A stretch of DNA of 64,000 nt from Ferrimonas marina. Its GTDB lineage: Bacteria; Pseudomonadota; Gammaproteobacteria; Enterobacterales; Shewanellaceae. Shown one piece after another: positions 26,111 to 29,520 of this stretch. The notes under the pieces were generated by a model, which saw nothing but the letters and a program-made list of their open reading frames with translations, did no database searches and was not told where the DNA came from. Position numbers and translations under genes: made by a program. The DNA is taken from contig NZ_FQXG01000007.1 in the NCBI RefSeq assembly GCF_900129905.1, forward strand, positions 186,001 to 250,000, given 5' to 3'. Positions within the stretch are counted from its first letter, which is position 1; each line of letters starts with the position of its first letter.

Positions 26111-27160
26111 ATGGAAGCGAACCCCACCGCCTTTGCCACCCAGATCCTTAACTGGTATCAGCAGTATGGCCGCAAGAGCCTGCCTTGGCAGCAAAACCGC
26201 ACCCCCTACCGGGTGTGGCTGTCTGAGGTGATGCTGCAACAGACCCAGGTGGCGACGGTGATCCCCTACTTCGAGCGCTTTACTGAGCGCTTCCCCACCC
26301 TGGTGGATCTGGCCAATGCCGAGGATGATGAGGTGATGCACCTGTGGACCGGGCTGGGCTATTACGCCCGTGCCCGTAATCTGCTCAAGGCCGCCCGGGT
26401 GGTTAGGGACCAGTACGACGGCCAGTTCCCCACCGAGATCGACCAGGTCGTGGCGCTGCCGGGGATCGGCCGCTCCACCGCAGGAGCGATCCTCAGCCTG
26501 TCGCTGGATCAGCACCACCCCATCCTTGATGGCAACGTCAAACGGGTACTGGCCCGGCACCAGGCGATCGACGGCTGGCCCGGCGTCAAAGCGGTGGAGA
26601 ACCGGCTGTGGCAGTTAGCGGAGCGTCATACCCCGGCTGACGGGGTGCAGCAGTACAACCAGGCGATGATGGATATGGGGGCGATGATCTGCACCCGCAG
26701 TAAACCACGCTGCACAGAGTGTCCGGTAGGTTCTGACTGCGTCGCCCAGCAGCAGGGCAACCCCCAGGACTTCCCCGGTAAGAAACCCAAGAAAGAGAAG
26801 CCGGTAAAGGCCTGCTTTTTGTTGCTGCTGCGCCACCGCGGTCAGCTCTACCTGGAGAAGCGCCCCGGAGCCGGGATCTGGGGTGGCCTATGGTGCCCGC
26901 CGCAACTCGACAGCAAGGCAGAGCTGGACAGCGCCCTGGCTCCACTTAAGGCCAGCAAGGCACCGCAGATGCTGACCCCCTTTCGCCACACCTTCAGCCA
27001 CTACCACCTGGATATCCAGCCGGTGCTGGTGGAGCTGGAACAGGCAACCACTGGCGTCGGCGAGCATGCCGGCGCCTGGTATCCGCTGGAGAAAAAGCCG
27101 GAGGTTGGGCTGGCAGCACCCACCGAAAAACTGATCCTTAGCCTGCAAAATATTGACTGA
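26111..27160 (+). CDS. mutY: Adenine DNA glycosylase MutY
   Basis: A 349-residue base-excision repair enzyme that removes adenine mispaired with 8-oxoguanine. The catalytic glutamate is in [13 protein letters not shown], the helix-hairpin-helix is [13 protein letters not shown], the catalytic Asp is in [11 protein letters not shown], and the iron-sulfur cluster motif CX6CX2CX5C ([17 protein letters not shown]) is complete. A NUDIX-like C-terminal domain recognises oxoG. ATG at 26111 gives the usual MEANP-type start; a long open frame upstream runs against trmB and was rejected. In most relatives yggX follows directly; here a 2.3 kb block intervenes. Confidence 0.96.
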
Positions 27161-27232
27161 GCACAAGCGCAATGAATAACGATCAACAGCTGCGCAATTG
27201 CCCCTGGTTGGTACGCTGTGCCAAGACGGGGC

Positions 27233-27281
27233 ACTAGTTCATATGATTGCGCTAACAGCTAATTGGAATTAGCGAACTAGT
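27233..27281. promoter_or_regulatory. Nested inverted repeats upstream of the riboswitch gene
   Basis: Outer arms ACTAGTTC (27233) and GAACTAGT (27274) enclose an inner palindrome GCTAATT-GG-AATTAGC (27258-27273). An alternative pairing CGCTAA/TTAGCG overlaps it. The arrangement lies 70 bases beyond the mutY stop and about 90 bases before the riboswitch, in the likely promoter region. It may be a regulator-binding site; no T run follows, so a terminator role is unlikely. The 305-base gap (27161-27466) otherwise holds only the riboswitch. Confidence 0.5.
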
Positions 27282-27370
27282 AGCGCCAAATTGAGCCAAC
27301 AAAGCAGACTATCCTCGTTGACGAATTTGGTACACCGGTGCAATACTTTCGTTCGAACAATCCTGATGTT

Positions 27371-27449
27371 GCGCTGCCAAACCAGTTGTGAGGCTGGGAC
27401 GGAAAGCCACGGGTCTCCAACCGATGAAAAGGAGATAGCCGGGTTGCAC
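27371..27449 (+). promoter_or_regulatory. GEMM-I type (c-di-GMP family) riboswitch candidate
   Basis: The leader contains the ordered core blocks of the GEMM-I aptamer: AAACC (27379), a short hairpin CCAG/CTGG, GGGACG, AAAGCC, ACGGGTCTCC, a stem formed by TCTCC with GGAGA (27431), then TAGCCGGGTTGC up to 27448. Residues known to pack the ligand pocket fall in these blocks. Deviations: ACGCAAAGCC of the consensus is ACGGAAAGCC here, and the closing P1 stem with the immediate 5' side pairs only poorly; GTGCAA at 27337 could pair with TTGCAC at 27444 instead. The ribosome site (AGAGGA, 27455) begins six bases past the aptamer and the ATG is at 27467, so translational control is more likely than a terminator switch. 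Confidence 0.75.
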
Positions 27450-27466
27450 AATTGAGAGGACCTTCC

Positions 27467-27940
27467 ATGAAGAAGTCTATTGCCGCCCTGGCAGCCTGCG
27501 CTGCCTTCTCCGCCGCTGTCTCCGCCGAAGTGATCAACGGCCCGCTGGTTACCAAGTGGGAAACCGATAACGACACCACCATCATCAAGCACAAGAAAGG
27601 CTGGGCCCCGGTGCTCAAGCTTAAGGGCGACCGTGGTGTTGGCCTGTATATTCAGCAGGGCAATAAGCAAGCCCGCGGTATCGTGATGGAAAGTGGTGGC
27701 ACCAGTAATCAAGCTAAGCTCACCATGGGCCCAAGCTATGTGGCTGCCGGTATCGCTGGTAATCCGGGATTTACCAAGGAAACTCCGGCCGCGGTATTCA
27801 AGCTCGAGGGTAAGAAGCTCGACAACGGAACCAATGGTCACGCCGTTGCCCTGGATGTGAAGCGCCAGGCCATCTACTGGCTTGATGAGAACGGCACTAT
27901 CATTGCAGAATTGATCCCAACCCCAGTACCTGCGCCGTAA
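27467..27940 (+). CDS. Secreted protein of unknown function, riboswitch-led
   Basis: A 157-residue protein with a clear signal peptide (KKSIAALAACAAFSAAVSA, cleavage after VSA near residue 20). I recognise no family. The mature part has WETDNDTTIIKHKKGW, Gly-rich and beta-like segments (LKGDRGVGLYIQQG), DVKRQAIYWLDENGTI, and a Pro-rich end (IPTPVPAP). It has no Cys outside the signal. ATG at 27467 was chosen for the GAGAGGA ribosome site; five more codons are open upstream. Control by the riboswitch suggests a surface or matrix role tied to the sessile state, which is inference. A terminator follows. Confidence 0.8.
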   Translation: MKKSIAALAACAAFSAAVSAEVINGPLVTKWETDNDTTIIKHKKGWAPVLKLKGDRGVGLYIQQGNKQARGIVMESGGTSNQAKLTMGPSYVAAGIAGNPGFTKETPAAVFKLEGKKLDNGTNGHAVALDVKRQAIYWLDENGTIIAELIPTPVPAP

Positions 27941-27948
27941 ATATTGCC

Positions 27949-27974
27949 AAGCGCCCCCTTGCGGGGCGCTTTAC
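27949..27974 (+). terminator. Terminator after the riboswitch-led gene
   Basis: AAGCGCCCC-CTTGC-GGGGCGCTTTAC: a nine-base stem with a short T tail. The next start codon (27983) comes only nine bases later, so the downstream gene may depend on partial readthrough or on its own promoter inside this region. Confidence 0.75.
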
Positions 27975-27982
27975 TAACGCCG

Positions 27983-28351
27983 ATGAAAAAACTACTCCTG
28001 CCTTTTTGCCTGGCCATCCTGGCCGCCGCCTACCTGATCCAGTACCTTCAGCTTCAGCAGCTTCGCAGCCAACTCGCGCAGCAACAGCTGGAGATCAAGA
28101 CCCAACGGATGATGGTGGTGGATAAGGACACCAATCCCCGTATTGTCCTGGATGCCGAAGGCGAAGAGGTTACCCTGACCATGCTGGATCAGGCTGGCAC
28201 CCCAAGGCTTCAGGCGGTGATGGATGTCAATGACAGTGGCAACCTGTTCCTGTTCGATATCGAGGGTAACCCCAGGGTCGGTTTCTTCAATGAACAAAGC
28301 GGTGAGGTGCTGCAGTATCTCGACAATGTCGAACCTTTTGTTCCGCAGTAA
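27983..28351 (+). CDS. Membrane-anchored small protein of unknown function
   Basis: A 122-residue protein with an N-terminal membrane anchor (LLLPFCLAILAAAYLI) and a coiled-coil (YLQLQQLRSQLAQQQLEI, residues about 20-38). The C-terminal half has three spaced repeats of a D-x-N/G-x-PRI/V/L type: DTNPRIVLDAEG, QAGTPRLQAVMDV and IEGNPRVGFF. This looks like a small beta-repeat periplasmic domain. No family is recognised. The ATG follows a terminator hairpin by nine bases and has no obvious ribosome site, so expression is uncertain. It is convergent with the gene at 28397. Confidence 0.65.
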   Translation: MKKLLLPFCLAILAAAYLIQYLQLQQLRSQLAQQQLEIKTQRMMVVDKDTNPRIVLDAEGEEVTLTMLDQAGTPRLQAVMDVNDSGNLFLFDIEGNPRVGFFNEQSGEVLQYLDNVEPFVPQ

Positions 28352-28396
28352 AACAGCGCTGTACTGCTTGATCAGCAGCACCCGGCTCCAGCTTTT

Positions 28397-29341
28397 TTAA
28401 CGTCTGTCTTGCAGCCAATCCCAAAGCTGCTGGTTACTCGCGGAGCGCTCACCGAGACGGGCCTGCGCTGCAGAAGCCAGCTGCGAGGGATAGACCCCCG
28501 CCTCGATAAACGCCTGCACCTGCTCCATGCTATGGCTCGACACGGCCTGTCGTGCCAGGCGGTCCAGCTGGGGAGTAAACACCCCCAGATAATCCCTGTG
28601 CTGTATCCACTCCATCTGAGCCAAGGGATCAGCAAACTCGAAATTGCCATAGTCCTCACGCAACAGCTCGTTGAGCTGCGGGTCCTGCAGCCCGTAGGCG
28701 AACTCCATAAACTCGACCCCGGGCTGACTGGACTGGCGGGCATCGATGACCGAATAGAGCCCCTGCTGGCGCAGCGGATTATCCTGCGCCAGGGCGAGAA
28801 CCCTATCGGTCATCAACTCCGAATCAAGCCCAAACAACTGTTCCAGCGTTTTGTCACGCAGCTGCGGTTGTAGATGATCCATCCGCTCCAGCTGGAGAAA
28901 GTCCGCTTGTAGCAGGGCATCACCAAACTGATCAAACAGGGCCTCAAGACCTCTGGGCCCGAGAGTACCAAGCAGTTCCGGCTCACTATTGAGCTGCATC
29001 AAGGCTTCCTGCGGCTGCTGCTGGATAAGGGTGACCCAGTAGGCCTGCAGCGCCTCGGCCTCTTCAGCGGAGAGCAGAATCTCTGGCAATTCAGGTGCGG
29101 TTGGTAACGGGCCGATGGCGGGTGAATGTGCCGAGCGAGAGGGGGAAACGAGTGCTGAACTGCGCTGAGGCACCGATGTATCAGTGCCGCTCTCACCAGC
29201 TGCGGAGAGCTTTGCAGCAGCGACTGGGCTGAGCTCTGCAACGCTGCTGTCTGATGGCGCAGGCCCGGTGAGAGCCCAAATACCCGCAGCCACCATTCCT
29301 AAGGTGACGGCGCCAAGTGTCCATTTGCTGAATCGGTTCAT
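28397..29341 (-). CDS. Membrane-anchored protein of unknown function
   Basis: A 314-residue protein with one N-terminal membrane helix (LGAVTLGMVAAGIWALTG, residues about 8-25), a low-complexity Ser/Pro/Ala linker (about 28-85), and a helical C-terminal domain rich in Leu, Gln and Glu. The topology suggests a periplasmic domain. ATG at 29341 was chosen; ten further codons are open upstream. No family is recognised. It lies between mutY and yggX and is divergent from yggX, with a 179-base promoter region between them. Confidence 0.7.
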   Translation of the reverse strand: MNRFSKWTLGAVTLGMVAAGIWALTGPAPSDSSVAELSPVAAAKLSAAGESGTDTSVPQRSSALVSPSRSAHSPAIGPLPTAPELPEILLSAEEAEALQAYWVTLIQQQPQEALMQLNSEPELLGTLGPRGLEALFDQFGDALLQADFLQLERMDHLQPQLRDKTLEQLFGLDSELMTDRVLALAQDNPLRQQGLYSVIDARQSSQPGVEFMEFAYGLQDPQLNELLREDYGNFEFADPLAQMEWIQHRDYLGVFTPQLDRLARQAVSSHSMEQVQAFIEAGVYPSQLASAAQARLGERSASNQQLWDWLQDRR

Positions 29342-29520
29342 CCTGCCCCCATATTGCTTCAGCGCCATCATAGGCTTGAGTGCTTTGCCAGCTCAAGTTC
29401 GCTGTATCGTTGCTCTGACAACAGATAAGGTGGCAAAGCCGTGGCTGCGGACAACCGCGATGCTGCGACGCCTGGCGCATTCTGGTATAACTGCGCAAGA
29501 CCAACCAAGAGGATGCAGCA

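Follow-up and report, generated by a model that had tools for sequence, protein, structure and literature searches.

The closest described relatives of the element analysed here are the Vc1 and Vc2 riboswitches and the 3',3'-cGAMP (GEMM-Ib) riboswitch of Geobacter, whose crystallised RNA we take to be Gs1761. According to the available part of PMC4744006, Vc1 lies upstream of gbpA in Vibrio cholerae within the first 111 nt of a 225-244 nt 5' leader, and lowering c-di-GMP reduces Vc1-dependent expression. Vc2 is described in the accessible sections of PMC9262584 as a translational OFF switch that depends on P1 and loses c-di-GMP binding without it; the same sections treat the G20 position as a factor in selectivity and not as a hard filter. 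For the cGAMP riboswitch, contacts between the J1/2 adenines and the ligand are described in the accessible portion of PMC6274999.

In a cmscan search of the window, by which we mean the whole 64 kb stretch of DNA that was analysed, the sole Rfam match above its gathering score was to RF01051 (c-di-GMP-I / GEMM-I) on the forward strand at 27366-27451 (54.2 bits against a gathering score of 35; E 8e-08; model positions 1-87 of 87). An earlier note on this DNA had proposed that a GEMM-I riboswitch precedes an unknown secreted protein, and the covariance model bears out the riboswitch; the core blocks it named are all present in the order it gave. Its limits of 27371-27449 were too narrow, and the distance from the aptamer to the ribosome site GAGAGGA (27454-27460) is two bases, not six. 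Covariation was found in P2 and P3, and the bases equivalent to G20, A47 and C92 are present as 27376 G, 27403 A (which we take to be A47 in Vc2 numbering) and 27447 C (presumably C92). This equivalence is our own mapping via the available part of PMC6274999. The usual J1/2 adenines and the P1-opening C76 are missing, neither of which the Rfam score needs. When the 86 nt were folded in isolation, the minimum-energy fold was the known three-way junction with an ordinary folding energy (z -0.49; 63 of 200 shuffles fold as well). The earlier note was right that P1 pairs poorly: the predicted fold has 3 + 2 pairs, and the 2 occupy the ligand-pairing C. The element is a true GEMM-I riboswitch whose ligand is most likely c-di-GMP; the instance itself is new, and as a form of GEMM-I it is slightly so. 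Table 1 lists the features of the locus.

Table 1. Features of the riboswitch locus, in window coordinates, with tandem GEMM-I pattern matches at two other loci in the last two lines.
Feature	Position	Strand	Basis
Promoter-like site TTGACG-18-AATACT, TG before second hexamer	27318-27347	+	consensus scan only, weak
c-di-GMP-I (GEMM-I) aptamer	27366-27451	+	RF01051, 54.2 bits
J1/2 (GCGCUG); adenines in most members	27371-27376	+	position comparison with other members
G assigned to the position of Vc2 G20 and cGAMP-riboswitch A14	27376	+	authors' mapping, numbering from available part of PMC6274999
P2 hairpin, GUGA loop; outer pair 27377-27402 C-G, commoner form G-C	27377-27402	+	
A at the J2/3 place (A41 of the cGAMP riboswitch)	27403	+	alignment and authors' mapping, available part of PMC6274999
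P3 arm	27405-27445	+	Rfam alignment, folding, covariation
Ligand-pairing C (C75 of the cGAMP riboswitch); next base A, usually C	27447	+	
Ribosome binding site GAGAGGA	27454-27460	+	sequence; 6 nt before ATG at 27467
Orphan protein, 157 aa, signal peptide-like N terminus	27467-27940	+	open reading frame, family searches
Second cassette gene, 122 aa, hydrophobic N terminus (by eye)	27983-28351	+	
Third cassette gene, convergent, 324 aa, no assigned function	28397-29371	-	
Tandem GEMM-I pattern matches	L095 7197-7501	-	pattern scan
Tandem GEMM-I pattern matches	L092 5828-6267	+	pattern scan

The earlier note had also pointed to a consensus C that is G in this element and had suggested that ligand choice might be altered. 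The base was read correctly, but it is not a defect, since it pairs with the C at 27377 to give C-G in place of G-C. To place this pair we used a comparison set of 117 RF01051 matches: 57 from 40 genomes (the host and its relatives) and 60 of the 112 places found, with a search that used stricter filters, outside the host genome and G028 in 369 genomes of the class, the 40 best and 12 weakest being left out. Three of the 117 could not be parsed. Among the 114 parsed members pair 21-46 is G-C in 91, C-G in 22 and unpaired in one; it is thus formed in 113, compared to a mean of 77.8 and a maximum of 89 in shuffles. The base before P2 is G in 20 of the 22 parsed members of the C-G type. At least 124 matches of the C-G form, not scored singly, were found by a pattern scan of public genomes, in several phyla to judge by the record titles; the base preceding P2 was G in 119 of the 124 listed and A in the other 5. 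Given these compensated swaps we reject the C-to-G change as a sign of altered ligand choice, and the C-G outer pair of P2 is an ordinary feature, neither a defect nor a clue to the ligand. The question of the ligand stems instead from the weak P1 together with the changes in J1/2 and at C76, a wider alteration around P1 that was absent from the first description.

This alteration is shared by a group of close relatives. The host genome contains six RF01051 matches, five of them compact; with two of the three matches in G017, a genome of another genus in the same family, they make up the seven C-G-pair matches that we call the compact group. Its members have a GNGA loop and a 3' end of the form GCCGGG-U/C-UGC, and the ligand C lies 19-23 nt from the AUG in all seven (19 nt in the window). 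Reading positions by offset from the match ends, we found AA at model positions 8-9 of J1/2 in none of the seven compared to 99 of the 110 other members; the cytosine that opens P1 (C76) was likewise present in none, compared to 98 of 110. The window has G and C as equivalents of A11 and A12. The seven copies are kin to each other and so do not represent seven independent events.

Within the compact group, 97.2% of the P2/P3 cells are paired, and two-sided changes occur in six pairs (4 of the 6 inner pairs of P2 and 2 of the 13 pairs of P3), a number that 11 of 500 shuffles reach. The covariation score for P2/P3 was 0.261 compared to 0.130 in shuffles (none of 500 reach it) and was at most 0.093 when the structure was slid, suggesting that the core is under selection. 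Further pair types in P2/P3 were not above chance (111 of 500 shuffles reach their number). Along with compensated changes in P2, 42 of the 72 core columns are invariant. The junction bases, like most of P2/P3, are constant in the seven copies, two pairs of which precede orthologous proteins that are only about 52% identical.

Losses in J1/2 and at C76 tend to go together. Among the pattern matches listed (9 of the 132 could not be mapped), C76 is absent from 17 of 31 places with a non-A J1/2 compared to 11 of 92 others (Fisher p 4e-6), and from 10 of 24 compared to 11 of 92 once the compact seven are removed; some of those 10 are Methylomonas, Methylophaga, Cycloclasticus and Alteromonas records. 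No description of the compact group was found in the literature searched (titles and beginnings of abstracts). We put forward, as a speculation that is unlikely but deserves stating, that the compact seven and similar elements in a few other gammaproteobacteria form a GEMM-I subclass without P1 and without the J1/2 adenines. Such RNAs would read the signal via G20, A47 and C92 alone and pass it on by freeing or hiding the ligand-pairing C; their ligand might be c-di-GMP, bound less tightly, or a different nucleotide that contains guanine. In three compact leaders the ligand-pairing C also belongs to a hairpin that surrounds the start codon or the ribosome site.

The likely ligand of the window riboswitch is c-di-GMP, as suggested by the G at 27376 and by two negative checks for cGAMP synthesis. 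A serine at the Hypr position of a GGDEF domain marks the enzymes that make cGAMP. The host genome has 25 GGDEF matches, and none of the 24 that were aligned (23 proteins, L198 and L204 being one) has serine there: 21 have Asp, and three degenerate ones have Asn, Glu or Val. There was also no match to the SMODS domain in the host genome which, judged by these two checks alone, shows no sign of cGAMP synthesis.

A different possibility is a variant subclass that, through loss of the J1/2 adenines and the closing pair of P1, has either acquired another ligand or come to rely on the leader or the ribosome for binding. The complete absence of both features from the compact copies, and the constancy of their junctions and most of P2/P3 while two orthologous protein pairs diverged, can be read in this way. 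Yet the two bases to which we ascribe guanine recognition have not changed, the loss of side contacts may merely lower affinity, and the seven copies are too closely related to count separately, so we regard this reading as rather improbable. Binding of c-di-GMP by the altered pocket would show how small a part of the aptamer is enough, and a lack of binding would point towards a new ligand. That the riboswitch senses 3',3'-cGAMP and not c-di-GMP is very unlikely. The C-G pair at 27377-27402 resembles C15-G40 of the cGAMP riboswitch (available part of PMC6274999) and is also carried by two of the seven A20-type members, but the specificity position that is A in GEMM-Ib is G at 27376, as in 110 of the 117 members and in all but five of the 124 C-G pattern matches listed; the host genome gave no SMODS match, and none of its 24 aligned GGDEF matches has serine at the Hypr position. 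We give hardly any credence to a decayed aptamer that has lost ligand binding and survives as a structured leader, for although P1 is weak, the J1/2 adenines are missing, the leader fold of the window is not special and Vc2 loses binding without P1 (PMC9262584, in the part available), those 42 core columns are invariant, with compensated changes in P2, across the five copies of one genome and a further two from another genus.

With c-di-GMP as the likely ligand, we consider it probable that the locus carries a compact, translational GEMM-I riboswitch in which binding of c-di-GMP alters ribosome access, so that output of the secreted protein follows c-di-GMP. The ligand would bind the three-way junction through G27376, A27403 and C27447; binding would change access of the ribosome to GAGAGGA; and output of the secreted, perhaps surface- or matrix-associated protein would track the cellular level of c-di-GMP. 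A transcript from the promoter-like site would begin shortly before the aptamer (the consensus scan found 2 such sites in 27100-28400 compared to a mean of 0.8 in shuffles). With only 19 nt from the ligand C to the AUG there is no room for a terminator, and the anatomy of the leader indicates that control is probably exerted at the start of translation. No terminator-like site was found on the forward strand from 27100 to 28319. By analogy with Vc2, which is unable to bind without P1 (accessible text of PMC9262584), the weak P1 speaks against strong ligand binding in the window.

As to the direction of the switch, we lean slightly towards ON. The lean comes from three of the seven compact leaders, L003, L050 (the orthologue of the window riboswitch) and L051, in which a hairpin includes the ligand C (z -3.0, -4.1 and -1.9, respectively) and either encloses the AUG or leaves the ribosome site in a loop. 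The leader of the window itself lacks such a hairpin (z +0.56; 0.64 for 27444-27500), and the direction is therefore a guess. Hairpins were clear in L003, L050, L051 and L165 and marginal in L001 (z -1.59).

Other ways of coupling the aptamer to the ribosome site were considered and rejected. Comparison of free and aptamer-fixed folds gave no consistent change in hiding of the ribosome site in the seven leaders; its unpaired fraction in the window was 0.45 free and 0.50 with the aptamer fixed, and the clearest change was in L002 (0.44 to 0.89). Pairing of the flanks, as P1 or against the ribosome site, was no better in the window than with shuffled flanks (0.56 were as good), and among the 18 members tested only L002 (0.035) and L110 (0.015) fell below 0.05. 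Nor is a leader hairpin a general trait of elements without C76 (mean z -0.60, Wilcoxon p 0.14, n=18 short-leader pattern members listed). Leaders with C76 were more folded (mean z -1.45, p 2e-8, n=43), and leader folding therefore does not distinguish the compact kind; terminators may contribute to the folding in the C76 group.

The unknown, secreted-looking protein that the earlier note placed behind the riboswitch is supported by a signal peptide-like N terminus and the lack of any Pfam family above cut-off. Searches of Pfam, NCBIfam, PHROGs, PADLOC and PDB sequences gave nothing below E 0.05, and plasmids and phages gave no match at E 0.001. A sequence search of 295 genomes of the order found the protein only in the host, whereas among 146 genomes of the family it was also found in G017 (56% identity). 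A profile search of the 369 class genomes returned the host and two weak short matches; G017 is evidently absent from both the 295- and the 369-genome samples. We did not accept as relatives the weak short matches in G012, G527 and G751 (E 0.003-0.005). Six peptide patterns yielded no confirmed relative in 84,980 species genomes, a scan from which very near records were possibly left out. The family thus has two members found here. An AlphaFold model built from the two-row alignment had a mean pLDDT of 41.6.

Two riboswitch-gene pairs are common to the host genome and G017: the window riboswitch and L050, whose proteins are 52-56% identical, and L003 and L051, whose proteins are 52% identical, each gene lying directly behind its riboswitch. 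All six RF01051 matches of the host genome precede a signal peptide-like protein with no Pfam family above cut-off, and the five compact copies each precede a different protein; BLASTP detected no relation among the proteins behind the six. The protein of L001 has Pfam matches that are weak and below threshold, and over 60 residues that of L006 weakly matches a phage tail fibre family (E 0.00075). Second-messenger control is thereby tied to a set of poorly known secreted-looking proteins and, with six of them behind such RNAs in one genome, these riboswitch-linked orphans are candidates for roles in attachment or the matrix. The 365-368 aa proteins of L003 (380-1483) and L051, each behind a compact riboswitch, also match each other out of register and thus seem to contain internal repeats. 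Two compact riboswitches converge 3.3 kb apart on G000 contig C6 (73048-73125, forward strand; 76350-76425, reverse strand), each with its own, unrelated signal peptide-like protein.

The orphan gene heads a three-gene cassette, which is flanked by genes that we take to be mutY and yggX. G017 has the orphan gene and then the other two at a different locus, presumably behind a cysteine synthase-like gene. The 122 aa protein, which is unrelated to the orphan protein by profile comparison, is 45% identical to its G017 counterpart and occurs in only these 2 of the 146 family genomes; the convergent third protein matches its counterpart at 24% over 196 aa (E 6e-15). In the other genomes of the genus the mutY-yggX gap is 77-89 bases in 10 of 13 and about 650 in one, with mutY beyond the fetched 1.5 kb in two, and none of the cassette genes was found in the 13 fetched mutY/yggX stretches. 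Because the cassette sits at another locus in G017 and is missing between mutY and yggX elsewhere, the riboswitch seems to move together with its genes.

Several other GEMM-I contexts were encountered. In at least four genomes of the genus (L012, L015, L024 and L041) a match precedes what we take to be a ParA-like ATPase gene, an unexpected target, and in the same genus L036, L037 and L014 precede secreted, chitin-active-looking proteins, presumably LPMO-like and chitinase-like, comparable to gbpA in Vibrio. A second odd form (L004, L053, L057 and L033) ends in GGCTGC(GCC/ATT)(A/G)CTG(A/G)G and not in AGCGGGG-TTACC. Among the pattern matches listed, tandem arrays of four and three occur in a Desulfosudis and a Desulfobulbaceae record, respectively, and L162 has two matches about 255 bases apart.

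Compared to the known systems, the window riboswitch resembles Vc1 in that a GEMM-I aptamer precedes a secreted-looking protein with no apparent terminator between them, but its ligand C is 19 nt from the AUG whereas Vc1 lies more than 100 nt away (available part of PMC4744006). It shares the C-G outer pair of P2 with the cGAMP riboswitch of Geobacter and differs from it in having G where that RNA has A at the specificity position; the Geobacter P1 is formed by G1-G8 with C76-G84, while the window riboswitch has hardly any P1 (PMC6274999 and PMC8835794, both in the parts available). In contrast to Vc2, where P1 is decisive in the accessible sections of PMC9262584, P1 is weak in the window and J1/2 is different. 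The aptamer core is nevertheless like that of Vc2, and control would likewise act at the level of translation.
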